A stretch of 64,000 bases of DNA from the IMG/VR virus record IMGVR_UViG_3300017917_005384, positions 1 through 64,000 of that record. The stretch is one strand, 5' to 3'. Numbering within the stretch: the first letter of the stretch is position 1; every line of letters begins with the position of its first letter. Of this stretch, positions 379 through 54,342 are shown one piece after another. The notes beneath the pieces were generated by a model. That model made no database searches, was not told the origin of the DNA, and worked only from the letters and a program-made list of their open reading frames with translations. This DNA is from a virus. The position numbers and the translations under genes were made by a program.

Positions 379-384
379 ATCTGA

Positions 385-576: not shown

Positions 577-594
577 AGTAATACCTTTTAAAGA

Positions 595-619: not shown

Positions 620-637
620 CGAAATAAAATAAACAAT

Positions 638-1330: not shown

Positions 1331-1332
1331 AA

Positions 1333-1357: not shown

Positions 1358-1372
1358 TTTAAATAAATAACT

Positions 1373-1844: not shown

Positions 1845-1847
1845 AAA

Positions 1848-1872
1848 GGCAAAATTCTTATCTTATATTTAT
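1848..1872 (+). promoter_or_regulatory. Early-type promoter, duplicated copy A
   Basis: GGCAAAA at 1848 and TATATTTAT at 1864. The 25-bp core, with the spacer TTCTTATCT, is identical at 2139, 2742 and 4329, so promoter and flanks were duplicated as a block. It drives the repeat-protein gene at 1888. Confidence 0.65.
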
Positions 1873-1887
1873 ATAAAATAAAAAAAT

Positions 1888-2139: not shown

Positions 2140-2163
2140 GCAAAATTCTTATCTTATATTTAT
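2139..2163 (+). promoter_or_regulatory. Early-type promoter, duplicated copy B
   Basis: GGCAAAA starts on the last base of the preceding TAG stop codon, and TATATTTAT starts at 2155. The core is identical to the copy at 1848. The target start at 2199 has a longer A-rich leader than usual. Confidence 0.65.
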
Positions 2164-2198
2164 ATAAATAAATAGTTAAACATTAAAAACAAAACAAA

Positions 2199-2426
2199 AT
2201 GACAAAGACAATTGTACTTGAACCTTCAACTAACACACACGCACTGACTGGTGTAACTGAAGTAGCTAACATTACTAGCTCAATTCTTAAAGTGAAAACA
2301 TCAGGCCCTTCTAAAGTGTTTCATGGTGAACATCACACTATTGGAATTGAAAGTGAAAATATAATCAAATATGTCCAGCAGGAACTAAACCCAGTAACAG
2401 GTAAGCTTCAGAATGCTTGGGACTAA
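2199..2426 (+). CDS. Hypothetical protein
   Basis: A 75-residue protein starting MTKTIVLEPSTNTHALTG. It has a central HGEHHTIGIES segment and ends LNPVTGKLQNAWD. No domain is recognised. It is monocistronic, with its own promoter upstream and a strong hairpin terminator 18 bases downstream. Confidence 0.65.
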   Translation: MTKTIVLEPSTNTHALTGVTEVANITSSILKVKTSGPSKVFHGEHHTIGIESENIIKYVQQELNPVTGKLQNAWD

Positions 2427-2443
2427 TTTAGATGAAAAAAAAG

Positions 2444-2475
2444 TGGGTGCTTAAAGGAGCACCCATTATTTTTTT
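2444..2475 (+). terminator. Rho-independent terminator
   Basis: An 8-bp perfect stem, TGGGTGCT (2444) with AGCACCCA (2458), a 6-nt loop and a following T-rich run. It ends the transcript of the gene at 2199. Confidence 0.85.
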
Positions 2476-2495
2476 AATTTATAGTGTTATAATGT

Positions 2496-2738
2496 ATGAA
2501 TCAATATAATGAAAAAGGGAATAGGGAAGGTTATTGGGAAGGGTATTGGTACAACGGTCAATTACGGGGGAAAGGTCATTATAAGGATGGTAAACATGAA
2601 GGTTATTGGGAATACTATTATTCCAATGGTCAATTAATACGGAAAGGTCATTATAAGGATGGAGCACCAGATGGTTATTGGGAAGAGTATCATTTAAATG
2701 GTCAATTATGGTATAAAGAATTTTATGCAAGAATGTAA
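2496..2738 (+). CDS. MORN-repeat small protein
   Basis: An 80-residue protein, MNQYNEKGN to FYARM, with three MORN-like units. It starts only 20 bases after the upstream terminator and no 16-nt-spaced promoter is visible, so it may depend on read-through or a weak internal promoter. Closest by eye to the genes at 1530 and 3646. Confidence 0.8.
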   Translation: MNQYNEKGNREGYWEGYWYNGQLRGKGHYKDGKHEGYWEYYYSNGQLIRKGHYKDGAPDGYWEEYHLNGQLWYKEFYARM

Positions 2739-2741
2739 AAA

Positions 2742-2766
2742 GGCAAAATTCTTATCTTATATTTAT
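2742..2766 (+). promoter_or_regulatory. Early-type promoter, duplicated copy C
   Basis: GGCAAAA at 2742 and TATATTTAT at 2758. It sits immediately after the stop codon of a MORN gene, the same arrangement as at 1848 and 4329. It drives the gene at 2797. Confidence 0.65.
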
Positions 2767-2796
2767 ATAAAATAAAAACAGTAAAATTAAAACAAA

Positions 2797-3546
2797 ATGA
2801 AAATTTACATCACAACATTTAATGAAGTTTATTTTGACACTGAACAAAATTCTATGGTTGGTTGTTCCAATTCTGAATTTCTTCGTTACCTAAAAGGTAT
2901 TCACACAAATCGTGAACGATTTATTAATCGTTATGTAAATGTGTTGCTTGAAAAACTTGAAAGTTTGAAAGAACATAGTATGGAAGATTATGATTGTATT
3001 AAAAAGTTTATTGACTTTTTGGTTGATAACTACAACGATGCTGTTTCTTTTTCATTTAAAGAATCTTTTGAACTAAATGAAAAACGAGAATTTCAAGCAC
3101 TAGTGTTTTCATCAATCAATATCGGTGAAATGATGCAAGAATTGGGTGCTACTCGTTATAAAACAGATGGTATCGAAGTTAAACACCGTCGATATGATGA
3201 TGATGGAAATGTTACTAATGAAGAAATGTACCACAATGTTTATGAAGTGTGGGAAGTGAATGGTGAAAAATTGGGAATTAATGAAAATCTTTACACAGTT
3301 AAATGCTGGTGTACTTCGACCAATAAAGAACATTGGTTGTGGATTGAAGATCAATACAAAGAAGATCCACTTGAAGCTATTGCATCTACTTTCCGAGTGC
3401 ATGAAAATATCATTCCTCATATCAAATGTTTGAAGCGACATGGTGATATTCTTTTAGCTGAAATGAATGAAGATGTCACACCAGAAGGTAATATTGTTCC
3501 ATTTACTAAGGAACTATATTTCAAACTATTAGTTGCTCAAAGTTGA
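2797..3546 (+). CDS. Hypothetical protein, 249 aa
   Basis: The largest early protein without a recognised domain. The N-terminus is MKIYITTFNEVYFDTEQNS. A helical, charged middle (residues ~20-90) is followed by a KTDGIEVKHRRYDDDGNV stretch and a possible beta segment, YTVKCWCTSTNKEHWLWIE. It lacks signal peptide and membrane segments and is probably cytoplasmic. Its own promoter precedes it and a GC-rich terminator follows, so it is expressed as a single unit. Confidence 0.75.
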   Translation: MKIYITTFNEVYFDTEQNSMVGCSNSEFLRYLKGIHTNRERFINRYVNVLLEKLESLKEHSMEDYDCIKKFIDFLVDNYNDAVSFSFKESFELNEKREFQALVFSSINIGEMMQELGATRYKTDGIEVKHRRYDDDGNVTNEEMYHNVYEVWEVNGEKLGINENLYTVKCWCTSTNKEHWLWIEDQYKEDPLEAIASTFRVHENIIPHIKCLKRHGDILLAEMNEDVTPEGNIVPFTKELYFKLLVAQS

Positions 3547-3564
3547 TGTTGTGATAATAAATGT

Positions 3565-3602
3565 AAAAAGCCCCTGATCGTTTAGAAAAGGGGCTTTTTT
3601 TA
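3565..3602 (+). terminator. Rho-independent terminator
   Basis: AAAAAGCCCCT pairs with AGGGGCTTTTT around a 13-nt loop. The A-run/T-run flanks suggest function in both directions. It ends the gene at 2797. Confidence 0.85.
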
Positions 3603-3605
3603 TTT

Positions 3606-3630
3606 GTCAAAACAACTATAATATATTTAT
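3606..3630 (+). promoter_or_regulatory. Early-type promoter for a MORN operon
   Basis: GTCAAAA at 3606, preceded by TTT so that TTTG is complete, and TATATTTAT at 3622. It drives three consecutive MORN genes starting at 3646, 3900 and 4155. Confidence 0.65.
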
Positions 3631-3645
3631 TAAAATTAATAAAAA

Positions 3646-3888
3646 ATGAATCAATATAACAAAAAAGGAAATCAAGAAGGTTATTGGGAACAATATTGGT
3701 TTAATGGTCGATTACGATGTAAAGGTCATTATAAGGATGGCAAAGCTGATGGTTACTGGGAAGACTATTATTCCAATGGTCAATTAATATGGAAAGGTCA
3801 TTATAACGATGGGGCACCAGATGGATATTGGGAAGTGTATTATGAGAATGGTCAATTAGAATTGAAAGAATTTTACGCAAAAATGTAA
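3646..3888 (+). CDS. MORN-repeat small protein
   Basis: An 80-residue protein, MNQYNKKGN to FYAKM, with three repeat units. It is the first gene of a three-gene MORN operon. It differs from its paralogs mostly at the variable positions flanking NGQL, the pattern expected of diversifying surface residues on a fixed scaffold. Confidence 0.8.
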   Translation: MNQYNKKGNQEGYWEQYWFNGRLRCKGHYKDGKADGYWEDYYSNGQLIWKGHYNDGAPDGYWEVYYENGQLELKEFYAKM

Positions 3889-3899
3889 ATTAGATTTAT

Positions 3900-4142
3900 A
3901 TGAATCAACGTAATGAGAAAGAAAATAGAGAAGGCTATTGGGAAGAGTATTACAACAATGGTCAATTAGATTATAAAGGGCATTATAAGGATGGTGTGCT
4001 AGATGGTTATTGGGAAAGATATTATTACAATGGTCAATTATGGCGGAAAGGTCATTATAAGGATGGCAAACGGGAAGGTTATTGGGAATTCTTTTATGAC
4101 AATGGTCAATTATACTATAAAGAATTTTTAGCAAGAATGTAA
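3900..4142 (+). CDS. MORN-repeat small protein
   Basis: An 80-residue protein, MNQRNEKEN to FLARM, with three units. It lies 11 bases after the previous MORN gene and 12 before the next. The MNQR start groups it with the genes at 136 and 4155 rather than with the MNQY group (1530, 2496, 3646), so at least two sub-lineages are interleaved. Confidence 0.8.
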   Translation: MNQRNEKENREGYWEEYYNNGQLDYKGHYKDGVLDGYWERYYYNGQLWRKGHYKDGKREGYWEFFYDNGQLYYKEFLARM

Positions 4143-4154
4143 ACCTGAATGTAT

Positions 4155-4325
4155 ATGAATCAACGTAATGAACAGGGACAAAAACATGGCTATTGGGAAG
4201 GGTATTATTCCGATGGCCAATTAAATTGGAAAGATCATTTTAAAGATGACAAAAAAGAGGGTTATTGGGAATCATATTTTTTCGATGGTCAATTACAGTA
4301 TAAAGAATTTTATGCAAGGATATAA
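4155..4325 (+). CDS. MORN-repeat protein, two-unit version
   Basis: A 56-residue protein, MNQRNEQGQ to FYARI, with only two repeat units. The repeats are decaying (KDHFKDDKK in place of KGHYKDGK). It may be an in-frame deletion product of a three-unit gene. Confidence 0.75.
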   Translation: MNQRNEQGQKHGYWEGYYSDGQLNWKDHFKDDKKEGYWESYFFDGQLQYKEFYARI

Positions 4326-4328
4326 AAA

Positions 4329-4353
4329 GGCAAAATTCTTATCTTATATTTAT
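4329..4353 (+). promoter_or_regulatory. Early-type promoter, duplicated copy D
   Basis: GGCAAAA at 4329 and TATATTTAT at 4345. As at 1848, it links a MORN gene to an EYDAQGN-repeat gene, so the MORN-promoter-repeat unit seems to have duplicated together. Confidence 0.65.
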
Positions 4354-4371
4354 ACAAATAAAATAAAAAAT

Positions 4372-4749
4372 ATGACAATCGCACAACAACTCAAGATTAA
4401 AGAATTTCCGTTCGAGATTAGGGATTCACATGGAAACTATATCTATTACGAAAATTCCAGGGGGAATTGGTTTAAGCATGAATACGACGCACAGGGCAAC
4501 CAAATCTACTACGAAACTTCCACTGGGTATTGGCACAAGGTTGAATACGATGCCGACGGCAGAAACATCTACTTCGAAAATTCAGCGGGGCATTGGTCCA
4601 AGCGAGAATACGATGCTCAAGGTAAAGAAATCTACTACGAAAACTCACGCGGTGAGGTCATCGACAAACGACCCAAAATCGAAATTACTATGGATGAAAT
4701 TGCAGCCAAGTTTGGCATTCCCGTTGAACAACTTAAAATCAAAAAATAG
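4372..4749 (+). CDS. EYDAQGN-repeat protein, three to four units
   Basis: A 125-residue protein starting MTIAQQLKIKEFPFEI and ending MDEIAAKFGIPVEQLKIKK. The centre has tandem units of about 21 residues (IYYENSxGxWxKxEYDAQG). The frame is open to 4246, but the conserved MTIAQQ start and the promoter at 4329 fix the start at 4372. Function unknown. Confidence 0.8.
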   Translation: MTIAQQLKIKEFPFEIRDSHGNYIYYENSRGNWFKHEYDAQGNQIYYETSTGYWHKVEYDADGRNIYFENSAGHWSKREYDAQGKEIYYENSRGEVIDKRPKIEITMDEIAAKFGIPVEQLKIKK

Positions 4750-4773
4750 GCAAAACAAACAAACTATCTTTAT
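4749..4773 (+). promoter_or_regulatory. Early-type promoter for exported protein
   Basis: GGCAAAA starts on the last base of the TAG stop at 4749, and TATCTTTAT starts at 4765. The target ATG is at 4810. Confidence 0.55.
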
Positions 4774-4809
4774 ACAAATATCGACTGAAATTTTGAAAAT
4801 TTTAAAAGC

Positions 4810-5244
4810 ATGAAAAACATACTAGCAACAGCACTGCTCCTGATCGGACTACAAGCATTTGGACAGCAAATCACCCTCAAAGACGTGTTCGCCATTTATG
4901 ACTTGAGAGGCGACTCTATGGCAATTCTGAAGATAGTGAAAGATAGCGGGTTCGTTTTTGTTGGGCAGCCGTATGAGGAGAACCACGATTGCTTTATTCA
5001 CAAAAGTGCGGAAACGATGGTTGCCATGCAATGGGGAAAGAGGGTGGTTTATAACTTCAAGTCGCTTAGCCTATACCAATCATACGAAATCGGCCTAGCC
5101 CAAATGGGATACACCAATACCGGCCAATTATTAATTGAAAAAGATATGGTGTATCAGTACAAAAACGGCAATAGAGAAGCCTACTTAGTTAAGTTCAACT
5201 TGGGTGATCCTAAACAATCCTATGGGATTAGTTTGGCTGACTAG
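4810..5244 (+). CDS. Exported protein with signal peptide
   Basis: A 144-residue protein. The first ~19 residues (MKNILATALLLIGLQAFGQ) are a typical Sec signal peptide with likely cleavage after AFG or FGQ. The mature part is mixed alpha/beta and has no recognised domain. Codon use looks less AT-rich than its neighbours, which may mark a recent acquisition from a host. The product is probably periplasmic or on the cell surface during infection. Confidence 0.75.
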   Translation: MKNILATALLLIGLQAFGQQITLKDVFAIYDLRGDSMAILKIVKDSGFVFVGQPYEENHDCFIHKSAETMVAMQWGKRVVYNFKSLSLYQSYEIGLAQMGYTNTGQLLIEKDMVYQYKNGNREAYLVKFNLGDPKQSYGISLAD

Positions 5245-5282
5245 AACTATAAATTGAAAAGTATAAACCAAAAAAAAAAATA

Positions 5283-5307
5283 GGCAAAATAATTGTATTA
5301 TCTTTAT
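5283..5307 (+). promoter_or_regulatory. Early-type promoter
   Basis: GGCAAAA at 5283 and TATCTTTAT at 5299. It drives the 71-residue gene at 5324. Confidence 0.6.
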
Positions 5308-5323
5308 ACAAAGAAAATTAAAA

Positions 5324-5539
5324 ATGTTACATAAAGAAATTGAAAAAAACAACCGCAAGGTTCAAGTTTATCGTCAAAAAAGTCCGATACGAAATGGATA
5401 TGAGTATTTTTTACAAGTCCTCACAAAAGGTATGTTTGGCGATTGGGTTGTAAATGCTAATTACAAACAAAAGACTGAAATAAATTCTGAACAAGTTGCA
5501 GTAAGAATGGCTAATGAATTTTTAGAGGATACCATTTAG
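5324..5539 (+). CDS. Hypothetical protein, 71 aa
   Basis: Starts MLHKEIEKNNRKVQVYRQK and ends AVRMANEFLEDTI. Basic at the N-terminus, with a possible small beta-sheet followed by a helix. No family recognised. It is the last gene before a 260-base region of unusual composition. Confidence 0.65.
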   Translation: MLHKEIEKNNRKVQVYRQKSPIRNGYEYFLQVLTKGMFGDWVVNANYKQKTEINSEQVAVRMANEFLEDTI

Positions 5540-5800
5540 GGTTTCCGCTAACTCACCACCTCACAACCCGCACCCGGCGGAACCGGGTAGTAAAATACAA
5601 TAAATAAAATGAAATAAACACAAAATACTAAGGTCAACGAAGTATATTGGATGGTAAGTATATGCGTTTTTTGCGGGTTTTTTGTGGTTTTTAATGGGTT
5701 TTTTATGTGTGGGTGAGTGAGACGAAGGGTGTAGAACAAAAATAAAGGGTGGAAACAAGAATTTTTTGTATTGGGGGAGGATGAAGGAGGTACATATAGT
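5540..5800 (+). other. Non-coding region with hairpin and G/T-rich tract
   Basis: No convincing gene. The left part has a 6-bp hairpin, ACCCGG-CGGAA-CCGGGT (5572-5588). Nested or pseudoknot-like pairing is also possible: GGGTT at 5539 with AACCC at 5565, and TTCCGC at 5543 with GCGGAA at 5577. The right part (about 5660-5800) is G/T-rich on this strand, with many GGG runs, unlike the A/T-rich gaps elsewhere. An AAGGAGG sequence at 5784-5790 is one of the few strong ribosome-binding-like sites in the window. Confidence 0.5.
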
Positions 5801-5917
5801 ATGTGGAACGGGGGGTATATGTTGGATGTGTTTTTGTGTGATAGGGGTAGAAAAGTTACAGTGGCTACATCCTCTCTACTAAGGAAAAAAGTATATACTA
5901 GGGACTACACAAAATAG
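5801..5917 (+). CDS. Candidate small protein, 38 aa
   Basis: ATG at 5801 to TAG at 5915-5917, beginning MWNGGYMLDVFLCDRGRK. Two things support it: an AAGGAGG ribosome-binding-like site about 10 bases upstream, and an ending directly at the next GGCAAA promoter box, as the real genes around it do. The G-rich base composition and the absence of a 16-nt-spaced promoter count against it. Confidence 0.35.
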   Translation: MWNGGYMLDVFLCDRGRKVTVATSSLLRKKVYTRDYTK

Positions 5918-5941
5918 GCAAAGTTTTTTTATTATTTTTAT
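5917..5941 (+). promoter_or_regulatory. Early-type promoter for ArdA-like gene
   Basis: GGCAAAG at 5917 and TATTTTTAT at 5933. It drives the gene at 5961. Confidence 0.6.
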
Positions 5942-5960
5942 ACAAATGAAATAAAAAGTT

Positions 5961-6248
5961 ATGAATTCAAGAATGAACGAAGATGATTTTTTGCTGGAGA
6001 TGTATTCAAAAGCAACAGGTTATGAAGTACAAGACCTTGATATTAATGAAGTACAAAATGCTTTTTTTGGTACAGCATATAGTGAAGAAGAATTTGTAGA
6101 ACAACTAATGGAAGAACAAGGAGTACTAGATAAAATCCCAAACAATATTGTTATTGATTGGAAAAGAACATGGGAAGAGAATTTTAGCCACGACTATTGG
6201 ACTGCAGAAGCAGAAGATGGTACCATTTATTTCTTTCTTACAAATTAA
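5961..6248 (+). CDS. ArdA-like antirestriction candidate
   Basis: A 95-residue acidic protein. Residues ~36-95 read GTAYSEEEFVEQLMEEQG, then a helix, then HDYWTAEAEDGTIYFF. This resembles the C-terminal part of ArdA antirestriction proteins (pattern: G.Y.S.EDFAEE, a Gly-Leu-Leu-type turn, then a D-Y-x-x-x-DG-x-(V/I)-x-F end), which mimic DNA to block type I restriction enzymes. ArdA is usually ~165 residues, so this would be a single-domain version. The match is by eye; net acidity is consistent with DNA mimicry. It has its own early promoter, fitting a need immediately after injection. Confidence 0.5.
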   Translation: MNSRMNEDDFLLEMYSKATGYEVQDLDINEVQNAFFGTAYSEEEFVEQLMEEQGVLDKIPNNIVIDWKRTWEENFSHDYWTAEAEDGTIYFFLTN

Positions 6249-6254
6249 AAAATA

Positions 6255-6279
6255 GGCAAAATTTTTTTATTATTTTTAT
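6255..6279 (+). promoter_or_regulatory. Early-type promoter
   Basis: GGCAAAA at 6255 and TATTTTTAT at 6271. It drives the repeat-protein gene at 6301. Confidence 0.6.
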
Positions 6280-6300
6280 AGTAAGAAAATAAAAAAAGAT

Positions 6301-6741
6301 ATGACAATTGCACAACAACTCAAGATCAAGGAATTTCCGTTTGAGATTAGAGATTCGCAAGGAAAATGTATCTATTCAGAAGAAGCCAACGGGCTTTGGA
6401 ATAAATGGAATTACGATACTCAAGGTAACATCATTCGTTACGAAACATCAACCGGGCATTGGGAAAAGTGGGAATACAACACTAACAGAATCGAGACTCG
6501 TTACGAAAACTCCGACGGGTTTTGGGAAAAGCGGGAATACGATGCCAACGGATACATCATTCGTTACGAAAACTCTGATAGATATTGGTCAAAGTGTAAA
6601 TACGACACACAGGGCAATATAATCTACTACGAAAACTCACACGGTAGGGTCATCGACAAACGGCCCAAAACCGAAATTAGTATGGACGAAATTGCACAGA
6701 AATTTGGCATTCCAGTTTCACAACTAAAGATTAAAAAATAG
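6301..6741 (+). CDS. EYDAQGN-repeat protein, longest member
   Basis: A 146-residue protein with the family N-terminus MTIAQQLKIKEFPFEI and C-terminus MDEIAQKFGIPVSQLKIKK. It has about five central units, with IRYENSDGFWEKREYD as the best-conserved form. Units differ more from each other than from the matching unit of paralogs, so unit gain is not all recent. Function unknown. Confidence 0.8.
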   Translation: MTIAQQLKIKEFPFEIRDSQGKCIYSEEANGLWNKWNYDTQGNIIRYETSTGHWEKWEYNTNRIETRYENSDGFWEKREYDANGYIIRYENSDRYWSKCKYDTQGNIIYYENSHGRVIDKRPKTEISMDEIAQKFGIPVSQLKIKK

Positions 6742-6765
6742 GCAAAGCTTTTTTATTATTTTTAT
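6741..6765 (+). promoter_or_regulatory. Early-type promoter, upstream of tRNA region
   Basis: GGCAAAG starts at 6741, on the last base of the stop codon, and TATTTTTAT at 6757. No start codon follows closely. A second promoter at 6794 lies between it and the tRNA gene. Confidence 0.5.
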
Positions 6766-6793
6766 AGTAAGAAAATTAAAAAAAATTTGATAG

Positions 6794-6818
6794 GTCAAAA
6801 TTAAAATTGTATATTTAA
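6794..6818 (+). promoter_or_regulatory. Promoter of the tRNA/ncRNA cluster
   Basis: GTCAAAA at 6794 and TATATTTAA at 6810, 15 bases before the mature tRNA-Leu end. Use of the same promoter type for RNA genes suggests an early stable-RNA operon covering 6833 to about 7285. Confidence 0.65.
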
Positions 6819-6832
6819 TATATCAAACAAAT

Positions 6833-6918
6833 AGTCGAGTGGCGAAATTGGTAGACGCGACAGACTTAAAATCTGTTGAGCCGAAAGGCTCGTGTGGGTT
6901 CGATTCCCATCTTGACTA
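6833..6918 (+). tRNA. tRNA-Leu (anticodon UAA)
   Basis: The acceptor stem is AGTCGAG/CTTGACT, with a G-T pair. The D-loop has GG, the anticodon loop is CTTAAAA (anticodon TAA), the variable arm is long (GAGCC-GAAA-GGCTC), and the T-arm has GGGTTCGATTCCC. The long variable arm and anticodon agree on leucine. CCA is not encoded. It would read TTA, the dominant leucine codon of these genes. Confidence 0.9.
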
Positions 6919-6977
6919 CGAGTGAGACTGTTACTAATTCATAGAACTATAGAGTGATTGCGTAGAATTAGAATTTT

Positions 6978-7098
6978 AGTCAGGTAATGTGTAATGTGAA
7001 AATGGCATCACATCCCAAAGACACCACGGTCCATAACCAATTGGACGCGAGACGTTATAAGGGTTACATTGTTACAGGTTCGAGTCCTGTCCTGACTA
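6978..7098 (+). ncRNA. tRNA-like RNA, 121 nt, non-canonical core
   Basis: A perfect 7-bp acceptor-type stem, AGTCAGG (6978) with CCTGACT (7091), encloses a perfect T-arm, ACAGG-TTCGAGT-CCTGT, placed directly before the 3' strand as in tRNA. The interior is far too long for a tRNA. It contains hairpins ATGTGA/TCACAT (about 6990-7012) and GTCCA/TGGAC (about 7030-7055), and I cannot build a normal anticodon arm. It may be an intron-containing tRNA, a decayed tRNA, or a tRNA mimic. Acceptor and T-arm are nearly identical to the element at 9205. Confidence 0.55.
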
Positions 7099-7110
7099 CA
7101 TTAAAGTTCT

Positions 7111-7277
7111 TTGACCACTTGCTTGAAGATAGACAGTAAGCAGCAATGCTCCTATAGCCGATACGAGAAATATAGGGCTTACAAACTATGCCAGTAGTTG
7201 TTGTCTATTGTAAAGATACAGTGAGTTGCGCATTAAGAGTTGCGGCTGTATTCCTCTGGTAAAGGACAAGTGGTCAA
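7111..7277 (+). ncRNA. Structured RNA with three-way junction
   Basis: A perfect 11-bp closing stem pairs TTGACCACTTG (7111-7121) with CAAGTGGTCAA (7267-7277). Inside are two long hairpins. Hairpin 1 has nested helices ATAGACA/TGTCTAT (7129, 7202), GTAAGC/GCTTAC (7136, 7177) and CCTATA/TATAGG (7151, 7171). Hairpin 2 has ATACAG/CTGTAT (7216, 7246) with an inner CGCA/TGCG. TTTTTAT follows the closing stem closely and may act as terminator. There is no open reading frame. It does not match tmRNA, RNase P or the simple long hairpin of 6S RNA as I know them. It lies in the tRNA cluster. Confidence 0.7.
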
Positions 7278-7470
7278 TGTTTTTATCTTGATTACTTCAA
7301 ACCATTTCACGTTGAAGAGACGTGGGGTAGTTTTCTTTTTGTCGTGGAGAGAGAAAAATAATAAGTAGCCTACCTCTGATCCCTCCACCTATTCTATAAG
7401 GCGCCCGTCCAAATCGACAATATAAATTTAAAAAGTTTATTTTGCCGAATAAAATTTTATTTATTTTTTA
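7278..7470 (+). other. Non-coding region after the structured RNA
   Basis: No gene seen. It contains a small hairpin, CACGT-TGAAGAG-ACGTG (about 7302-7323), and a longer-range pairing, GTGGAG (7344) with CTCCAC (7383), with GCCT/AGGC outside it. This could be a second structured RNA, but I cannot define its ends. Base composition is more GC-rich than in other gaps. Confidence 0.4.
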
Positions 7471-7495
7471 GTCAAAATATGATTTGTATATTTAT
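7471..7495 (+). promoter_or_regulatory. Early-type promoter
   Basis: GTCAAAA at 7471 and TATATTTAT at 7487. It drives the gene at 7515. Confidence 0.65.
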
Positions 7496-7514
7496 ACAAA
7501 TAAAATAAAAAGTT

Positions 7515-7706
7515 ATGAATGTTTATCAAGACACTGCTGATCGACTATTGGGTATTTGTGATGATTGGACAATAAAAAACATAAAAGAACATCTGTTGTG
7601 GTTAATTGATAATCCAGAAGAAATAGCAGATGGATATAATAAATCTGTTTTTAAAGAAAGTAATGTGGATAAAATTATGAAATATGTTAAAGTTTTAAAA
7701 AAATAG
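7515..7706 (+). CDS. Hypothetical protein, 63 aa
   Basis: A helical protein starting MNVYQDTADRLLGICDDWT with basic C-terminal KVLKK. No domain recognised. Single gene between two early-type promoters. Confidence 0.65.
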   Translation: MNVYQDTADRLLGICDDWTIKNIKEHLLWLIDNPEEIADGYNKSVFKESNVDKIMKYVKVLKK

Positions 7707-7730
7707 GCAAAACATATTTCGTATATTTAT
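7706..7730 (+). promoter_or_regulatory. Early-type promoter
   Basis: GGCAAAA starts on the stop codon's last base (7706) and TATATTTAT at 7722. The start codon at 7745 is only 14 bases past the second box. Confidence 0.65.
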
Positions 7731-7744
7731 ACAAATAAAAAGTT

Positions 7745-8125
7745 ATGACAATAGCACAACAATTAGGTATTAAAAAATTTCCATTTGAAATTAAGAATTC
7801 TCGTAATCAACGTATCTATTTGGAAGATGGAAAAGGGTTTTGGTTAAGACGAGAATTTGACGTTCAGGGTAACGAAATTTATTATGAAGACTCAAATGAA
7901 TGTTGGGCAAAGATAGAACACGATGCTCGAGGTAATGAAATCCGTTATGAAGACTCAAACAAGTATTGGGCCAAGTGGGAATACGATGCTCAAGACAATC
8001 GAATTTACTTTGAAGACTCATTGGGTATTATTGAGGATAAACGACCACCCAAAACCGAAATTAGTATGGATGAAATTGCAGCCAAGTTTGGTATTCCAGT
8101 TTCACAATTGAAAATCAAAAAATAG
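7745..8125 (+). CDS. EYDAQGN-repeat protein, diverged member
   Basis: A 126-residue protein starting MTIAQQLGIKKFPFEIKNS and ending MDEIAAKFGIPVSQLKIKK. The repeats carry EDS in place of ENS (YYEDSNECWAKIEHDARGN). It shows the most AT-rich codon use of the four paralogs and is probably the oldest copy in this genome. Function unknown. Confidence 0.8.
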   Translation: MTIAQQLGIKKFPFEIKNSRNQRIYLEDGKGFWLRREFDVQGNEIYYEDSNECWAKIEHDARGNEIRYEDSNKYWAKWEYDAQDNRIYFEDSLGIIEDKRPPKTEISMDEIAAKFGIPVSQLKIKK

Positions 8126-8149
8126 TCAAAACTAATTACTTATATTTAA
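8125..8149 (+). promoter_or_regulatory. Early-type promoter
   Basis: GTCAAAA at 8125 and TATATTTAA at 8141. It drives the gene at 8168. Confidence 0.65.
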
Positions 8150-8167
8150 TTAATAAAATTAGAACAT

Positions 8168-8365
8168 ATGCCTAACATGTCTTATTGCCGATTCCAAAAC
8201 ACGTATCAGGATTTGATGGATTGCTATGAAAATTTGAATGATAGTGATTTGAGTCATAATGAACGTCGTTATCGAGAAAAACTAGTAGAGTTGTGTCAAG
8301 ATATTTTGGATGAATATGATCCTCAGGAAGAAGAAGACGAAGAAAATGATGATTTTGAGGAGTAA
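8168..8365 (+). CDS. Small acidic conserved phage protein
   Basis: A 65-residue protein starting MPNMSYCRFQNTYQDLMDCY, with a central LSHNERRYREKLVELC helix and a very acidic tail. Short MSYCRFxNTxxDLxDC proteins recur in Bacteroidota phages and genomes (from memory). Function unknown. Confidence 0.7.
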   Translation: MPNMSYCRFQNTYQDLMDCYENLNDSDLSHNERRYREKLVELCQDILDEYDPQEEEDEENDDFEE

Positions 8366-10964: not shown

Positions 10965-10989
10965 GTCAAAATTTTTTTATTATATTTAA
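10965..10989 (+). promoter_or_regulatory. Early-type promoter
   Basis: TTTGTCAAAA (G at 10965) and TATATTTAA at 10981. The preceding TTATTAATGAATAATA is repeated upstream of the promoters at 11310 and 11655, so the upstream flank was duplicated too. Confidence 0.65.
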
Positions 10990-11015
10990 TTATTAAATAA
11001 ATAAAATTAAAAATT

Positions 11016-11249
11016 ATGGAAAAGAAATTAGTATTAGAAATTTTAGAAAGGAATGGATATGATAAAGAATATTTTGAGGAAATGGATGATAATGTAATTG
11101 AAGGAGGTACTGAAGAATGGATGGATGTGTTAAGTGATATAATTGGAAAAAATGCATATGATCAAGATAATTGGACTGAAGAGGATTATATGAAAGTTAG
11201 AAAATTTATTAATGTTATGGAAAATGATTTAGGATTAGAATTATTGTAA
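11016..11249 (+). CDS. Acidic protein with domain shared with 47968
   Basis: A 77-residue protein starting MEKKLVLEILERNGYDKE. Residues ~32-66 (EEWMDVLSDIIGKNAYDQDN and on) are nearly identical to the C-terminal half of the gene at 47968. At DNA level, 75 bases are the same (11112-11186 against 48145-48219). Here the domain has no RMQQLAGINE leader and is driven by an early promoter. Function unknown. Confidence 0.7.
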   Translation: MEKKLVLEILERNGYDKEYFEEMDDNVIEGGTEEWMDVLSDIIGKNAYDQDNWTEEDYMKVRKFINVMENDLGLELL

Positions 11250-37413: not shown

Positions 37414-38049
37414 ATGAATAAATTAGATATCTATGAAGTTGAAGATTGTGGTTGTTTTGGCCCCAAATTAACTTTAAATGAAGGACAAGATAATATTATG
37501 TTATCTGAAGGATTAAAATACCATATTCAAGAAGGTAGGATGCTTATACATAATATTTATCGCCCATTATCTAAATCCTATTTTGCTTTAGTACGTGAAG
37601 CACGTGATTTATATAATAAAGGATTATTATCTGTAACTGAGGATGATATGGAACTTTTAGAAAGCAATTTAGGTGAATTCGGTATATATAATGGTATTAA
37701 AGTTCCACTTGATTATGTATTTGATATTGATGAAGTTACCAACTATATTAATGAAGCTACTAAAGATAAAAAGAAAACACCCCCATTAGGCAAACCTAAA
37801 CGTGGTGGATCTAAAAAATTCTATGTTTATGTTCGTAAACCAGGTGGAGGAATTAAAAAGGTATCATTTGGAATGGCAGGTGGGGGATTGCGTGCTAAAT
37901 TAAATAACCCAAAAGCACGTCAAGCCTTTGCAAAACGTCATAAATGTTCACAAGCAAAAGATAGAACAACTGCTCGTTATTGGAGTTGTAGACTTCCTCG
38001 TTATGCTAAACTATTAGGCTTCAAAACCAGCTTTAGTGGTTATTGGTAA
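37414..38049 (+). CDS. Virion-type protein with basic C-terminal RYWSCR domain
   Basis: A 211-residue protein from MNKLDIYEVEDCGC. The segment LTLNEGQ near residue 20 has an LNE/G site like the other leaders. The C-terminal ~80 residues are basic: SKKFYVYVRKPGGGIKKVSF, then FAKRHKCSQAKDRTTARYWS followed by CRLPRY. The KRHxC...DRTTARYWSCRLP pattern is familiar from T4-like cyanophage and other large-phage proteins of unknown function. DNA binding inside the head is plausible. Confidence 0.6.
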   Translation: MNKLDIYEVEDCGCFGPKLTLNEGQDNIMLSEGLKYHIQEGRMLIHNIYRPLSKSYFALVREARDLYNKGLLSVTEDDMELLESNLGEFGIYNGIKVPLDYVFDIDEVTNYINEATKDKKKTPPLGKPKRGGSKKFYVYVRKPGGGIKKVSFGMAGGGLRAKLNNPKARQAFAKRHKCSQAKDRTTARYWSCRLPRYAKLLGFKTSFSGYW

Positions 38050-38063
38050 TAAATCGAAAAATC

Positions 38064-38693
38064 ATGAAATACTACAACTTTTTCAAATTTCTAGAAGATA
38101 AAGGAGAAAAGAAAATCCCTATCAAAGTAAAATTAATACAAAATCCAAACTACCAAATCACACAAGCTGACGCGACACCCGATTTGAATTTATACGATAC
38201 TCCAATCACATCTCTTGGAAATTTAACTTCAGTTGGTGGCAGTTTGAATTTATACGATACTCCAATCACATCTCTTGGAAATTTAACTTCAGTTGATGGG
38301 AATTTGAATTTACAATATAGTAATGTCAAATCTCTTGGAAATTTAACTTCAGTTGGTGGAGATTTGAATTTATATGGTACTCAAATCGAATCTCTTGGAA
38401 ATTTAACTTCGGTTGGTGGGAATTTGTATTTGATAGGAACTAATGTTGAATCTCTAGGAAATTTAACTTCGGTTGGTGGGAATTTGAATTTGGAAAATAC
38501 TAATATAGAATCTCTTGGAAATTTAACTTCGGTTGGCGGGGATTTGTATTTAAATAATAGTCCAATAAAATCTTTTGGAAATTTAACTTCGGTCGGTGGA
38601 TATTTGAGTTTATACAATACTCCCCTATCAAAAAAATACACTGAAGAGCAAATTCGATCAATGGTTGATGTTAAAGGTGAAATATATTTATAA
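38064..38693 (+). CDS. Leucine-rich-repeat protein with 60-bp tandem repeats
   Basis: A 209-residue protein from ATG (an upstream TTG start is less likely). Residues ~45-190 are eight 20-residue units of the form LNLYGTxIESLGNLTSVGGD, an LRR/right-handed solenoid pattern. At DNA level the units are 60-bp repeats with long identical cores (TCTTGGAAATTTAACTTC). The N-terminus MKYYNFFKFLED has an FLE/D site resembling the leaders. The repeats probably expand and contract. Function unknown; a binding scaffold is likely. Confidence 0.75.
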   Translation: MKYYNFFKFLEDKGEKKIPIKVKLIQNPNYQITQADATPDLNLYDTPITSLGNLTSVGGSLNLYDTPITSLGNLTSVDGNLNLQYSNVKSLGNLTSVGGDLNLYGTQIESLGNLTSVGGNLYLIGTNVESLGNLTSVGGNLNLENTNIESLGNLTSVGGDLYLNNSPIKSFGNLTSVGGYLSLYNTPLSKKYTEEQIRSMVDVKGEIYL

Positions 38694-43388: not shown

Positions 43389-43396
43389 TATTTATT
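43387..43396 (+). promoter_or_regulatory. Late-type AATATTTATT motif
   Basis: Overlaps the preceding stop codon. It is followed directly by the early-type element at 43397, so the gene at 43425 may have both promoter types. Confidence 0.35.
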
Positions 43397-43420
43397 GGCA
43401 CAATATTTTAATTATATTTG
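43397..43420 (+). promoter_or_regulatory. Early-type promoter with full TAnnTTTG box
   Basis: GGCACAA at 43397 and TATATTTG at 43413, spaced 16 nt as in the early region. The second box is an exact Bacteroidota-type TAnnTTTG. The ATG at 43425 follows within five bases, so a transcript would be leaderless. Confidence 0.45.
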
Positions 43421-43424
43421 CCAA

Positions 43425-43811
43425 ATGGAATTTATTACTGAAGTAAAACGTTTACAAAAACTAGCAGGAATATTAACTGAACAAGAAAAACAACCAGAAG
43501 AAGAAATTTCTTCTGCTGATACTCCTGAAACTCCATCTGGTTCTATTACTAAGGCTGAAGCAAAACAGCTTATAAAAGGAACAAAAGGTAAATTCTTTAC
43601 TGTTACTTTCATTAAAAAAGACGGCACTACTCGTGTTATGAATGCCCGTTTAGGTGTAAAAGCATACCTTAAAGGAGGAGAACTTCCTTATGATCCTGAA
43701 GCAAAAGGATTAATACCTGTATTTGATATTCCTAAACGTGAATACAGAATGGTGAATTTAAATACTATTATTAAGTTAAAGATTGGTAATAACGAATACG
43801 ATGTAAAATGA
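43425..43811 (+). CDS. WYL_2/Sm-like SH3 barrel protein with LAGI leader
   Basis: A 128-residue protein from MEFITEVKRLQKLAGILTEQ, a leader of the RxQxLAGI class with an LTE/Q site. After an acidic linker, residues ~40-128 have GKFFTVTFIKKDGTTRVMNA and RLGVKAYLKGGE, the pattern of the Sm-like SH3 barrel (WYL_2, formerly DUF2693) found in many phages. It may bind nucleic acid. The ATG at 43425 was chosen because it begins the leader. Confidence 0.65.
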   Translation: MEFITEVKRLQKLAGILTEQEKQPEEEISSADTPETPSGSITKAEAKQLIKGTKGKFFTVTFIKKDGTTRVMNARLGVKAYLKGGELPYDPEAKGLIPVFDIPKREYRMVNLNTIIKLKIGNNEYDVK

Positions 43812-46851: not shown

Positions 46852-47361
46852 ATGGAACAACACATTAATGAAATTCGTAGAATGCAACAATTAGCAGGTA
46901 TTAATGAAATTAAAGTATCTCAACCGACAAATTCAAAAAATAATAATATTAGTTTATATAATTTTTTAAATAGACATATTGAAGAATTTGCTAAAGATCA
47001 ACTTCAAACAAATGAAAATTTATCAATATTTGTTTTTAATGAATATTATAATTGGGATACTAATCCTGCAAATTTAGAAGATGAAAATTATCCATACGAT
47101 ACAGAATTTAAAGATATGCCTCAACCTATTCAACAAGATATGATAAATTATTTAGTAGAAAAAGGATTAGAATATTATGGGGAATGGAAATCAGAAGAAG
47201 ATAACGATAAAACTTACGGAATAGAATGGAATTTAGATTACGGTATGGTATATAATTGGACAAATAAAGCCTACCCAGGACCTGCAGAAGATTTGCATCA
47301 TGGTTGGATTGAACAAAAGTTTAAAGGAATAATATTTTATGTTTTATATTTTAATGTATAG
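46852..47361 (+). CDS. LAGINE-leader protein, 169 aa
   Basis: The first 20 residues, MEQHINEIRRMQQLAGINEI, form the LAGINE leader, followed by KVSQPTNSKNNN as a flexible linker. The cargo is acidic and aromatic-rich (GIEWNLDYGMVYNWTNKAYP). No family recognised. Confidence 0.65.
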   Translation: MEQHINEIRRMQQLAGINEIKVSQPTNSKNNNISLYNFLNRHIEEFAKDQLQTNENLSIFVFNEYYNWDTNPANLEDENYPYDTEFKDMPQPIQQDMINYLVEKGLEYYGEWKSEEDNDKTYGIEWNLDYGMVYNWTNKAYPGPAEDLHHGWIEQKFKGIIFYVLYFNV

Positions 47362-47463: not shown

Positions 47464-47955
47464 ATGAATATATTCTATATCCACCCAGACCCAAAAATAG
47501 CAGCTCAGCAACTGGCAGATGACCATATTCGTAAAATGCAGATTGAATCTGCACAAATGTGTTGTACTGCTCATTGGTCTGTAGGTAACGAAGCTCCATA
47601 TAAGCGAGCTCATTTTAATCATCCTTCAACAAAATGGACACGAGAATCTATTCAACATTATCGTTGGTTAGTTCAACATGGGTTAGAAATTTGCAATGAA
47701 TTTATTAAACGTTATGGTAAACGTCATAAAACACAAGATGTATTAGAATGGTGTCGTGATAATGAACCTAATATTCCTGATAATGGGTTTACTCCTCCAC
47801 CACAATGTATGCCGGATGAATATAAAAAAGAAAATACTATAGAAGCATATCGTAAATTTTATATTAAAGATAAAATAAAAATTAAAGGATTAAAATGGGA
47901 AAAATTAAAAAACATACCAGAATGGGCTTTTATTGATATTTATTACCACAAGTAA
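47464..47955 (+). CDS. Conserved phage/giant-virus family protein
   Basis: A 163-residue protein: MNIFYIHPDPKIAAQQLADD, HIRKMQIESAQMCCTAHW, HFNHPSTKWTRESIQHYRWL, then FTPPPQCMPDEYK. The His/Cys-rich IFYxxxDPxxAAxxxxDxHxxKMxxE...NHPxxxW...YRWL...TPPxxxMPDEYK pattern belongs to a widespread family of large phages and giant viruses whose function I do not know for certain; some are labelled pyrimidine-dimer-glycosylase-like. It has its own early-type promoter and no leader. Confidence 0.7.
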   Translation: MNIFYIHPDPKIAAQQLADDHIRKMQIESAQMCCTAHWSVGNEAPYKRAHFNHPSTKWTRESIQHYRWLVQHGLEICNEFIKRYGKRHKTQDVLEWCRDNEPNIPDNGFTPPPQCMPDEYKKENTIEAYRKFYIKDKIKIKGLKWEKLKNIPEWAFIDIYYHK

Positions 47956-47967
47956 AAATAAAACATA

Positions 47968-48279
47968 ATGAAAAAACATATTAACGAAATTTATAGAATG
48001 CAGCAATTAGCTGGTATTAATGAAATACGAGTAGCAACTCCTGGAAAGAGTCACTATTTGAATTTTTCTCAAAATGATGTAATTAATATTTTAACTAATA
48101 ACGAAATAGATATAGATGATGAAGAAGGAATAGATACAGATTCAGAAGAATGGATGGATGTGTTAAGTGATATAATTGGAAAAAATGCATATGATCAAGA
48201 TAATTGGACTGAAGAGGATCATATGAAAGTTGGAAAATTTATAAAGGTTGTGGAAGAAATGGGCATTGAATTTATATAA
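47968..48279 (+). CDS. LAGINE leader fused to early-gene domain
   Basis: A 103-residue protein. Leader MKKHINEIYRMQQLAGINEI, a linker, then EEWMDVLSDIIGKNAYDQDN, which matches residues ~33-52 of the early protein at 11016. 75 bases are identical between 48145-48219 and 11112-11186. This shows a recent transfer of the cargo domain onto a leader. Function unknown. Confidence 0.7.
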   Translation: MKKHINEIYRMQQLAGINEIRVATPGKSHYLNFSQNDVINILTNNEIDIDDEEGIDTDSEEWMDVLSDIIGKNAYDQDNWTEEDHMKVGKFIKVVEEMGIEFI

Positions 48280-48316: not shown

Positions 48317-48628
48317 ATGAAACAATATATTAACAAACATAGAATGCAGCAGCTAGCTGGTATTAATGAAATCAAAGTATCTCAACCTGTTAGAATGTGG
48401 GATTGGAATATTGAAGAATTTGGTTATTATGATCCATTAAATAAAACATTTACAGTAGAATCAGGAGATGCATTTGCTGATTATATGGATACAGAATTTC
48501 CTGATTGGCTTAATAATGAATATGTTGCTAAAAAAGGAATAGAAAAATACACTAAAGATATTAAAAACGCGGTAAAAAAAGAATACGGTTCTGATGTAAC
48601 AATTATAGGAGATAATTTTTCATATTAA
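48317..48628 (+). CDS. LAGINE-leader protein, 103 aa
   Basis: Leader MKQYINKHRMQQLAGINEIK, one residue shorter than its relatives, then VSQPVRMWDW as linker. The cargo has EFPDWLNNEYVAKKGIEKYT and ends in a short beta segment. No family recognised. Confidence 0.65.
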   Translation: MKQYINKHRMQQLAGINEIKVSQPVRMWDWNIEEFGYYDPLNKTFTVESGDAFADYMDTEFPDWLNNEYVAKKGIEKYTKDIKNAVKKEYGSDVTIIGDNFSY

Positions 48629-48765: not shown

Positions 48766-49290
48766 ATGGAACAAAAGAAAATTGTAATTATTGGAGCAGG
48801 AGTAGCAGGTATCAACGCTGCTACTAAACTAGTTGATAACGGTTATCCGGGTGAATTAATCACAATTATAGATAAAGGTAATGACCCACATAACCGCTTA
48901 CCTGAAGAAGTAATGACAGGTATGTTAGGTGCCGGTGGTTGGAGTGATGGTAAATTAACTTATCACACTGCTATTGGTGGTCAGTTATCTAAATATTGTG
49001 GTGAAGAAAAAGCAATGGAATTAATGGATCAAGTTATTTCTAATTTTAGACGTTTTCATCCTAAACCAGAAGAAATATTCTGTTCTGATCCTCAGGAAGA
49101 ACCTGAATTTATTAAACCATATTTTGGTTTGAGAATGTTCCCTGTATGGCATATTGGAAGTAATTATCTTCATCTCATTGCTTGTAAATGGTACGAATAT
49201 TTATTATCGAAGGGAGTGAATTTCATGTGGAATACTGAAGTCACAGATATAAACTTTGATACTAATGAAATCGAATTTAAAACAAACTAG
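48766..49290 (+). pseudogene. FAD-dependent dehydrogenase, N-terminal fragment
   Basis: Encodes 174 residues. IVIIGAGVAGINAATKLVDN (residues ~6-25) is a Rossmann FAD-binding motif, and GAGGWSDGKLTYHTAIGG (~56-73) is typical of the COG2509-type FAD-dependent dehydrogenases. The frame ends at EFKTN and continues logically in the fragment at 50325 (KIKYDSLIFAVGKSG). A 1-kb insertion with a homing endonuclease and an acetyltransferase gene separates the halves. The enzyme would be inactive unless the halves assemble in trans. Confidence 0.75.
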
Positions 49291-49921
49291 AATCTATATT
49301 TACTTCTTAGAAAAGAATAATAATGTCTTTTATGTTGGTAAAACAAAAAATCCTAAACGTAGAGAATATGATTGGAAAAGAGAATTTGGAGAAGACATTA
49401 ATTTTAATTTAGTAGATGAAATAGAAGATAATAAAATAATATGGAAATTTTGGGAAAATTATTGGATTCAACAATTTAAACAGTGGGGTTTTAATTTAAT
49501 TAACCAAAACGAAGGTGGTGGTGGTTTAGATAAACATTCTGATGAAACTATTGAAAAAATTAGATCTAAAAAAATAGGTGTAAAACAAAATAGAACTAAA
49601 ATTAGAAAAGATAAAGGATTAAAACATAATAAACAACAAGGTATTAAGATTGGTCGTCCTGAAGGATTTAGATACAGTGAAGAACTTAAATTACATTTAA
49701 GTAATAAAATGAAAGGACGTTCAAAACATACTGAAGAAGGAAAATATAAATTTGTAGATAATAAGGTTTATTCTTTTATTAATATAGATACTAATGAAGA
49801 ATTTAATGGTATTAGATATGATTTTCAAAAGAAATATAATTTAAAATATAAAGGAATATATAATTTAATAACAAGTAAAGCAAAAACATATAAAAGATGG
49901 AAAATAAAAGAATTAAATTAA
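49256..49921 (+). CDS. GIY-YIG homing endonuclease
   Basis: A 221-residue protein. IYIYFLEKNNNVFYVGKTKN followed by PKRRE is a GIY-YIG core. The C-terminal half has basic NUMOD-type DNA-binding segments (GRPEGFRYSEELKLHLSNKM, YSFINIDTNEEFNGI). It begins inside the 3' end of the first dehydrogenase fragment. An internal later start is possible, because the first residues (MILMKSNLKQ) are encoded by the host gene's sequence in another frame. Confidence 0.8.
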   Translation: MILMKSNLKQTRIYIYFLEKNNNVFYVGKTKNPKRREYDWKREFGEDINFNLVDEIEDNKIIWKFWENYWIQQFKQWGFNLINQNEGGGGLDKHSDETIEKIRSKKIGVKQNRTKIRKDKGLKHNKQQGIKIGRPEGFRYSEELKLHLSNKMKGRSKHTEEGKYKFVDNKVYSFINIDTNEEFNGIRYDFQKKYNLKYKGIYNLITSKAKTYKRWKIKELN

Positions 49922-51146: not shown

Positions 51147-51638
51147 ATGAAAAAATCAGAACTAAGACAAATAATCAAGGAAGAAATTACCAAAGTATTA
51201 AATGAATTTGAAGATTTATCTATTAAAAATAATTATCTAGACAAAAATTTTTATGACCCTATAACAAAAGAATACTCAGAAGATGTAGTAGTGGATAGTA
51301 ATAAAATATTTAAAGATTTATTAAAAACCAAAGTATATTATAAATCAAAATTACCATTATATCAAAACAATAAACCATTAACTGACTCTCAAATAGACTC
51401 ACTAATTGATACATTTGCTGCTAATGAAAGAGATATCATGATTTCTGACATACCTGATATAGATAAAGTAAAATGGATAAATAAATGGAAAAGGGTAGAT
51501 CTAGATGATTTAACTGATAATTTTATAAGTTTTGTAGAGGGTATATCTGAAAATTGGGAAGAATGGGAATTCCATGATGTTAATCAAACACGATATTCTG
51601 ATAATTATCCATCAGAAAATAAATGGAACCAACTTTAA
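51147..51638 (+). CDS. MKKSELRQIIKEE-leader protein, 163 aa
   Basis: Leader MKKSELRQIIKEEITKVLNE, then an acidic, mostly helical cargo (PITKEYSEDVVVDSNKIFKD, ENWEEWEFHDVN). No family recognised. The next gene has an almost identical leader but unrelated cargo. Confidence 0.65.
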   Translation: MKKSELRQIIKEEITKVLNEFEDLSIKNNYLDKNFYDPITKEYSEDVVVDSNKIFKDLLKTKVYYKSKLPLYQNNKPLTDSQIDSLIDTFAANERDIMISDIPDIDKVKWINKWKRVDLDDLTDNFISFVEGISENWEEWEFHDVNQTRYSDNYPSENKWNQL

Positions 51639-51661
51639 TTAAAAATGAATACTCAAATAAA

Positions 51662-52618
51662 ATGAAAAAATCAGAACTAAGACAAATAATTAGAGAAGAA
51701 TTACAAAAACTAGCTGAAACACCTCAATATGAAAAACAACCTGTAGATGAAGGTTGGAAAGAAAATGCTATGGCTTTAGCATTAACTGCTGCTAGTATGA
51801 TAGGAGGGGGTAAAAAAGCAAAAGGACAAGATATCCTACAAAAATCTCCCGTTGCTGCTGCTACTGTTAAACAAACACAAGATACATTATCTGTTAATTT
51901 TAATGATAATTTTAAAAGCGGTAGATATACTCTTAGTGCTGAATCATCAAAAGATATAGTAGAAAAATTAAGAGCTATAGGCAACTTTATTAGAAATAAC
52001 CCAAATAATAATATTAAAATAAGTATCATTTCAAGTGAATCTAAAGTTCCTAATTATGATAAAGAACCTTCATCTTCTACTTATAATTCTCGCTTAAACA
52101 CAGGTGAATTAGCTAGTAAAAGATCAGCTTCAATGAAATATACCATTCAAACTTTACTCAAAGATTTGGAAAAAAATGGTGTAGATACTAGTAAAGTAAC
52201 TTTTGAACCTGCTCAAAATTTAGTTGGAGGACCAGAATGGAAACAAGGAATGTCACCTTCTGATTCTCAATTTGTCAAACATCAGTTTGTTAAAGTTGTT
52301 ATATCTTTATCTGATGAAAACAAAGTTGACTATTCTGCTTTTGCTAAAGAAGGAGAAAGTTATTTTGACGCTAACGACCATTTAACTGCTATAGTATTTT
52401 ACAGAACAAGAGAAGCATATGATAGATCTCAATCTGGCCTAGTAGATACAGGCCGTGAAGATGTTTTAGTAAGATTTGTAGATAAAAATGGAAAATTTAT
52501 AGGAGAAGATTATTTATTGGATAATAGCTGGTGGAATACTAATAAAAATATTAGCAGTGAAATGACTTCTGAATTTAAAGAAAAAATTATTAAGAACGGA
52601 AAACGAGTTAAACCATAA
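51662..52618 (+). CDS. Leader-bearing OmpA-like protein
   Basis: A 318-residue protein from MKKSELRQIIREELQKLAE. The frame is open from 51623, but the shared leader fixes the start. A short hydrophobic stretch (NAMALALTAASMIGGG) could be a membrane segment. Residues ~75-220 resemble an OmpA-like peptidoglycan-binding domain: NFKSGRYTLSAESSKDIVEK, NIKISIISSES, LASKRSASMKYTIQTLL. It might anchor a packaged or injected protein to the cell wall. Confidence 0.6.
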   Translation: MKKSELRQIIREELQKLAETPQYEKQPVDEGWKENAMALALTAASMIGGGKKAKGQDILQKSPVAAATVKQTQDTLSVNFNDNFKSGRYTLSAESSKDIVEKLRAIGNFIRNNPNNNIKISIISSESKVPNYDKEPSSSTYNSRLNTGELASKRSASMKYTIQTLLKDLEKNGVDTSKVTFEPAQNLVGGPEWKQGMSPSDSQFVKHQFVKVVISLSDENKVDYSAFAKEGESYFDANDHLTAIVFYRTREAYDRSQSGLVDTGREDVLVRFVDKNGKFIGEDYLLDNSWWNTNKNISSEMTSEFKEKIIKNGKRVKP

Positions 52619-53991: not shown

Positions 53992-54342
53992 ATGAAACAA
54001 CCAATTAATGAAATTAAAAGAATGCAGCAACTAGCGGGCATTAATGAAATTAAAATACCTACACCTGGAGGTAAAGATGGAGTATTATATAGGAAATTAA
54101 AAAATGCAGGTTTATTTGATAAATATTTTGATATTTATGAAATTTACGATTATGGAACAGCTTTACAAGAAATAGAAGCGTATGAAATACAAAATAATTT
54201 AGCTTATGAAATAGCAAAAGAAAAAGGATTTAAAGGTAGTTTTGGTGATCTTGTCAATAATGAAGAATTAAATTCAGAGTTGAATCGTTTAGCTGATAGT
54301 TTTGTAAAACAATTTGCTAAAGAAAAATTTAATATAACTTAA
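53992..54342 (+). CDS. LAGINE-leader protein, 116 aa
   Basis: Leader MKQPINEIKRMQQLAGINEI, then KIPTPGGKDG as linker, close to the PTPG/TPGK linker of the gene at 47968. The cargo is helical (YEIAKEKGFKGSFGDLVNNE). No family recognised. A strong terminator follows. Confidence 0.65.
   Translation: MKQPINEIKRMQQLAGINEIKIPTPGGKDGVLYRKLKNAGLFDKYFDIYEIYDYGTALQEIEAYEIQNNLAYEIAKEKGFKGSFGDLVNNEELNSELNRLADSFVKQFAKEKFNIT

Follow-up and report, generated by a model that had tools for sequence, protein, structure and literature searches.

The two copies of the EWMD domain and their promoters

The window analysed here, bases 1-64000 (64,000 nt) of a 155,189-bp virus record (G000), comes from a T4-like myovirus with genes for a baseplate wedge, a primase and a DNA polymerase exonuclease, whose nearest relative in culture, judged by the capsid protein, is Flavobacterium phage vB_FspM_immuto_2-6A (58% identity). 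It encodes two forms of a domain of about 75 aa with a pI of about 4, here termed the EWMD domain, one of which bears an N-terminal leader of the LAGINE type:

10965..10990, plus strand: early promoter element TTTGTCAAAAT..TATATTTA, some 50 nt ahead of ORF 11016 (PWM score 32.2)
11016..11249, plus strand: EWMD domain protein, early form without leader, 77 aa, net charge -14 (AlphaFold pLDDT 93.7)
11112..11186, plus strand: 75-nt block, early copy
47936..47943, plus strand: late-type promoter box ATATTTAT, also present ahead of the terminase and portal genes; lies 32 nt upstream of 47968
47968..48279, plus strand: leader-bearing form of the EWMD domain protein, 103 aa, starting MKKHINEIYRMQQLAGINE
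47968..48024, plus strand: leader MKKHINEIYRMQQLAGINE; its scaffold-tail motif reads RMQQLAGI and precedes INE, with a gp21-type cut predicted after E19
48145..48219, plus strand: 75-nt block, leader copy; probable gene-conversion tract

A preliminary description of this DNA had reported a 75-nt identity between the two genes, near-identity beyond it, and a leader present at 47968 and absent from the early protein, and all of this is borne out by both ORFs. The segments 11112-11186 and 48145-48219 match exactly, in the same reading frame and at all synonymous positions too, and no other exact direct repeat in the window is as long (maxima of 16-20 nt in 20 Markov shuffles). Beyond this block the similarity reaches 11222/48255 (95% over 111 nt) and then collapses on both sides. 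An assembly artefact, raised in the same description, is unlikely because each copy is flanked on both sides by its own diverged homologous domain sequence and because leader-bearing and leaderless forms both recur in independent contigs.

The two genes lie behind promoter elements of different classes. The element at 10965, itself one of the sites on which the PWM was trained, compares with a best score of 18.3 in ten shuffled genomes, and elements of this type precede many of the small ORFs at 1-12 kb. The region 1-8300 additionally contains families of repeated early ORFs with shared promoters (e.g. MTIAQQL.IK.FPFEI at 1888 and 7745), which suggests repeated duplication in the early region. 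A further site at 47423, similar to the early element and upstream of the gene preceding 47968, was rejected as an early promoter, its score of 12.4 being within the shuffle range. Beyond 12.5 kb the plus strand has 59 copies of the ATATTTAT box, and 32 of them fall 20-60 nt upstream of a gene start, where 3.2 would be expected; the genes concerned include those for terminase, portal and tail proteins, the gene for the KKSEL protein at 51147, and the leader genes at 47968, 53992 and 70254. Among the EWMD genes the box precedes five of seven leader forms (the exceptions being L110:3911 and L112:3680) and none of eight leaderless ones, counts that come from small samples of related genes and hence describe an association and not independent trials.

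The leader motif, the scaffold tail and the exchange of cargo

The head module of G000, at 62-74 kb, comprises genes for terminase (61979), portal (63584), protease (68826), scaffold (71424) and major capsid protein (72541). The prohead protease matches phrog_207 (E = 1.4e-56) and the major head protein also has a PHROG match; the scaffold, with no PHROG match, was assigned by its location just upstream of the major capsid gene (the gp22 position) and by its conserved tail. Like T4-type phages with a CTS, G000 encodes a core scaffold, a gp21-type prohead protease and a capsid protein resembling gp23. The N terminus of the major capsid protein reads QLVTE-A in G000 and is similar in relatives.

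Taking the ORF directly upstream of the capsid gene as the scaffold, we found that R[MWLF][QK]xLA[GN] and then I or L form its C terminus in all 59 capsid loci examined, that of immuto included (tails: immuto ...VSRWQKLAGIIK; G000 ...VIARMQKLANIK). The N-terminal leader, a short propeptide common to 65 proteins with many unrelated cargo families, has the consensus R-M-Q-x-L-A-G-I/L, with [LIV]xE just after it in 63 of the 65. Across 2770 ORFs (567,675 residues) the motif is N-terminal in 67 instances, C-terminal in 71 and internal in three, and the internal ones are all leader-like, two being separators in the three-part ORF L033:7726-8793 and one, in L110, a leader preceded by a wrongly placed start. 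Searched as DNA, the motif pattern gave 35 matches in 13 genomes and the reversed control none. A literature search for the leader strings recovered none. From this sharing of the motif we infer that the leader reproduces the tail of the phage's own scaffold, a result that we regard as the most valuable of the analysis and that lies outside 47968-48279. The scaffolds of the distant phages RM378 and Mel-JY01 carry such a tail too, and the motif pattern matches nothing else in these two genomes, so the tail seems to be older than its use as a leader. The C terminus of T4 gp22, when compared, showed no such tail.

Leader genes were found at most 9 kb upstream of the capsid gene in 23 of the 59 loci, and the remaining 36 have none within that distance; in G000 the leader genes 70254 and 70673 lie between protease and scaffold. 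Immuto, whose host is Flavobacterium sp. LMO8, has two leader proteins, encoded at about 25.1 and 111.7 kb, for which cleavage would be predicted just after ITE. The 355-aa protein L033:7726-8793 has two internal motifs that would separate three cargos, and in the 160-aa cargo protein L046:8234-8716 the motif is C-terminal. It may therefore be functional wherever it is placed. The window contains several further leader proteins, some of them with a second type of leader:

43395..43811, plus strand: leader protein (RLQKLAGILTE); relative L108:2314-2667
46852..47361, plus strand: LAGINE-leader protein with a different acidic cargo
48317..48628, plus strand: LAGINE-leader protein; cargo similar to the central domain of L108:3587-4228 (28% over 120 columns, counting the leader)
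51147..51638, plus strand: second-leader-type protein, MKKSELRQIIKEE (the KKSEL protein), with late-type box
51660..52618, plus strand: second-leader-type protein, MKKSELRQIIREE
53992..54342, plus strand: LAGINE-leader protein; cargo also found behind a KKxEL leader in L106:501-944 (36% over 69 aa)

The second N-terminal leader (MKKSELRQIIKEE and variants) is likewise found on diverse proteins, encoded in the window at 39828, 51147, 51660 and 59485 and elsewhere by L106:501-944 and 1009-1284. The same cargo families occur behind either leader type: a 67-aa cargo, with copies 65-93% identical, follows a KKQQLQSLIREV-type leader in L096, L068, L069, L090 and L091 and is also present in LAGI-leader proteins of L075, L094 and L045, and L021:6498 has both leader types in series. 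Furthermore, the leader cargo of L038 matches a leaderless protein from a region of small ORFs (L120:1493-1753, 48% over 80 columns), on a contig that also has a leaderless EWMD gene. These sequence comparisons indicate that domains move between leader and no leader.

Other peculiarities of the window include a 60-nt tandem repeat in seven copies (38150-38682) within ORF 38043-38693, and an FAD-type oxidoreductase-like ORF (48766-49290) that stops after 174 aa and is overlapped in another frame by the next ORF (49256-49921). The ORF homologous to the oxidoreductase-like one in L108 (5589-6110) also ends at 173 aa, and an intron, a homing insertion or a frameshift are possible explanations.

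The EWMD family and the origin of the 75-nt block

Searches with single proteins recovered one relative of the EWMD domain, and a search with an alignment recovered 16 loci. Leaderless genes (window 11016, L011, L102 [= L121/L122], L115, L116, L117, L120 and L123) sit without exception in runs of small ORFs. The leader-bearing genes (window 47968, L101, L108, L110, L111, L112 and L113 [= L114, L119]) have the EWMD domain at the C terminus in every case, with differing architectures: the domain directly follows the leader in the window, L101 and L110; a cargo resembling that of window 48317 intervenes in L108, a KKSEL segment and further sequence in L111, and another domain in L112 and L113. 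The L101 and L108 proteins have a near-identical leader (MKKQxNEIKRMQLIAGLITESEYQESLMNE) and EWMD domains 97% identical, with the extra cargo between them absent or present. A leader gene with a DEWLSLL string (L106:1345-1686) was left out of the family, its domain match being weak (E about 0.01). Tblastn with both window copies gave no matches in cultured phages, and no occurrence was confirmed among 84,980 bacterial and archaeal genomes, so that a host origin of the domain is not supported at that sensitivity. Pfam and PHROGs gave the leader proteins and the EWMD domain weak, chance-level matches only.

The preliminary description took the 75-nt block as direct evidence that cargo domains are swapped onto the leader. 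As a general claim such swapping is supported, since the EWMD domain occurs with and without a leader at independent loci; the block itself is not the footprint of a leader-domain joining. Aligned over the domain, the two window copies match at 33 of 37 residues inside the similar tract and at 9 of 34 outside it, and both flanks of the block are recognisable as the same EWMD domain. Outside the tract, a comparison that spans only about 35 residues, the leader copy is closer to L101 and L108 (14/35) and to L116 (15/35). The gene preceding 47968 (47464-47955) also precedes the leader genes of L101 and L108, which places leader forms at a syntenic locus in relatives. Because of this synteny and the low match outside the block, the 75-nt identity is most readily explained by gene conversion over a short tract between two older paralogs. 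The conversion probably ran from the early into the leader copy, because the tract has the no-gap state common to the leaderless forms of L011, L102, L120 and L123; both the conversion and its direction are deduced from about 70 residues.

The competing account, favoured in the preliminary description, is a recent duplication that added a copy of the early domain to a leader gene already in place, the block being a remnant of the fusion. The identity at every synonymous position does mean that recent copying of DNA took place, and the no-gap state marks the copied segment as of the leaderless type. Nevertheless, the domain of the leader copy is complete and yet strongly diverged in its N-terminal half and last residues, and leader forms are already present at the syntenic locus in L101 and L108, for which reasons we consider such a duplication unlikely and retain conversion between paralogs. 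The domain tree is weakly resolved, with leader status changing at least twice on it. The occurrence of a leader on the early copy of a relative, which had been held to count against swapping, was found once: L110 has a leader form in an early-type neighbourhood, which points to leader gain or loss at both loci and does not refute swapping. Three tandem leader genes are present there (L110:2917-4219) in otherwise early-type surroundings.

Proposed role and comparison with known systems

We propose that the leader mimics the scaffold tail and thereby serves as a capsid-targeting signal, placed on the N terminus of small cargo proteins and followed by an [LI]-x-E site of the gp21 type. Such cargo would dock at the site used by the scaffold in prohead assembly, be freed of its leader by the gp21-type protease at maturation, remain in the head in its mature form and be ejected with the DNA. 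The match of the leader to the scaffold tail and its gp21-type site imply that the tagged EWMD form is probably used in the virion. The activity of the domain would accordingly be present at DNA entry, from the injected form, and soon afterwards, from new synthesis of the untagged early form. The two window copies would be old paralogs, with the 75-nt identity a later short conversion tract, probably from the early into the leader copy. We consider this reading as a whole, with its scaffold-tail leader, virion and early EWMD copies and later conversion, to be likely.

As to what the cargo does, the net charge ranges from -4 to -22 in the EWMD family and from -3 to -15 in the four LAGINE cargos of the window, and the early copy is the third most negative of the 37 early ORFs of G000. 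AlphaFold (15 sequences) predicts the EWMD domain to be a confident helical domain (pLDDT 93.7, pTM 0.82). Foldseek, VIA-align, Pfam and PDB-sequence searches gave no significant match; in the PDB (sequence and fold) and BFVD nothing reached E <= 0.001 and the best VIA Z was 3.8, so that no fold was assigned. T4 provides a precedent in IPI*, which is injected and inhibits a restriction enzyme (PMC3012670). By this analogy and from its acidity, the most plausible role of the EWMD protein is that of an acidic inhibitor of host defence, both injected and made early, a suggestion we put forward tentatively as the likeliest of the possible roles.

The leader proteins might instead be structural core or scaffold-accessory proteins that act in head assembly only and are degraded rather than delivered. 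The T4 core proteins gp67 and gp68 are degraded by gp21 (PMC9958956), the leader copies the scaffold tail, and genes such as 70254 and 70673 lie between protease and scaffold; against this, the cargos are exchangeable and of extreme diversity, and one of them also exists untagged under an early-type promoter, which is hard to explain for a pure assembly factor, making this role rather improbable. Alternatively, the leader might be no head signal but a regulatory or stability tag, its likeness to the scaffold tail being convergent. We hold this to be very improbable, as the motif is confined to the termini of leader proteins and scaffolds, is followed by a protease-type site, and is encoded in genes that share a late-type box with portal and terminase. 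Returning to the capsid-targeting proposal, we see about even grounds for and against its extension to a large group of T4-like phages, in which a copy of the C-terminal docking peptide of the scaffold would serve as a portable tag, removed by the prohead protease (N-terminal, C-terminal or internal) and an exchangeable set of injected proteins would gain or lose it together with a late promoter, at least one being kept untagged as an early gene for action at DNA entry and in early infection.

How T4-type targeting sequences put proteins into the scaffolding core is still described as mysterious (PMC9958956). If the leader is a scaffold-tail copy, a cultured phage would allow this question to be tested directly, and the tag offers a genome-readable flag for candidate host-delivered proteins, most of which have no known function. 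Paired tagged and untagged genes further suggest that one activity is required both when the DNA enters and in early infection, a useful clue to counter-defence functions. The acidic anti-restriction proteins of the Ocr and ArdA type are small, strongly negative, early phage proteins; the early EWMD protein is likewise small and strongly negative, but Foldseek, VIA-align, Pfam and PDB-sequence searches gave no significant sequence or fold match of its domain to them.

The T4 internal proteins carry a propeptide of 10-19 aa with an L/I-X-E site, after which gp21 cuts, and co-purify with gp22 (PMC9026906). The leader resembles the CTS of IPI, IPII and IPIII in being an N-terminal propeptide of 10-20 aa on unrelated small proteins that ends in such a site (PMC9026906), and here too a gp21-type protease is encoded; the diverse cargo of T4 is thought to act in counter-defence (PMC9026906, PMC3012670). 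The link to the T4 CTS is one of analogy: the leader here copies the C-terminal tail of the phage's own scaffold, whereas T4 gp22 ends differently. The T4 internal proteins are described as basic, a charge that is not essential to the definition of CTS cargo, whereas the cargo here is mostly acidic (EWMD pI about 4). Also unlike in T4, one cargo domain is encoded by an untagged gene under an early-type promoter as well, and two interchangeable leader types exist. In phage P1 the N-terminal signal of DarB suffices to place a foreign protein in the head, and Dar proteins counter restriction (PMC9024508). The leader would be comparable as an N-terminal head signal, here predicted from sequence, but the Dar proteins are large and the DarB signal is not known to be linked to a scaffold tail. 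P1 is not known to have a separate scaffold. In engineered P22 loading, cargo enters the capsid fused to the coat-binding C-terminal region of the scaffold (PMC9962691). That artificial system uses a long scaffold piece with the cargo at its N terminus, whereas in the present phages nature seems to rely on a motif of 8 residues, relocated to the N terminus and provided with a cleavage site.
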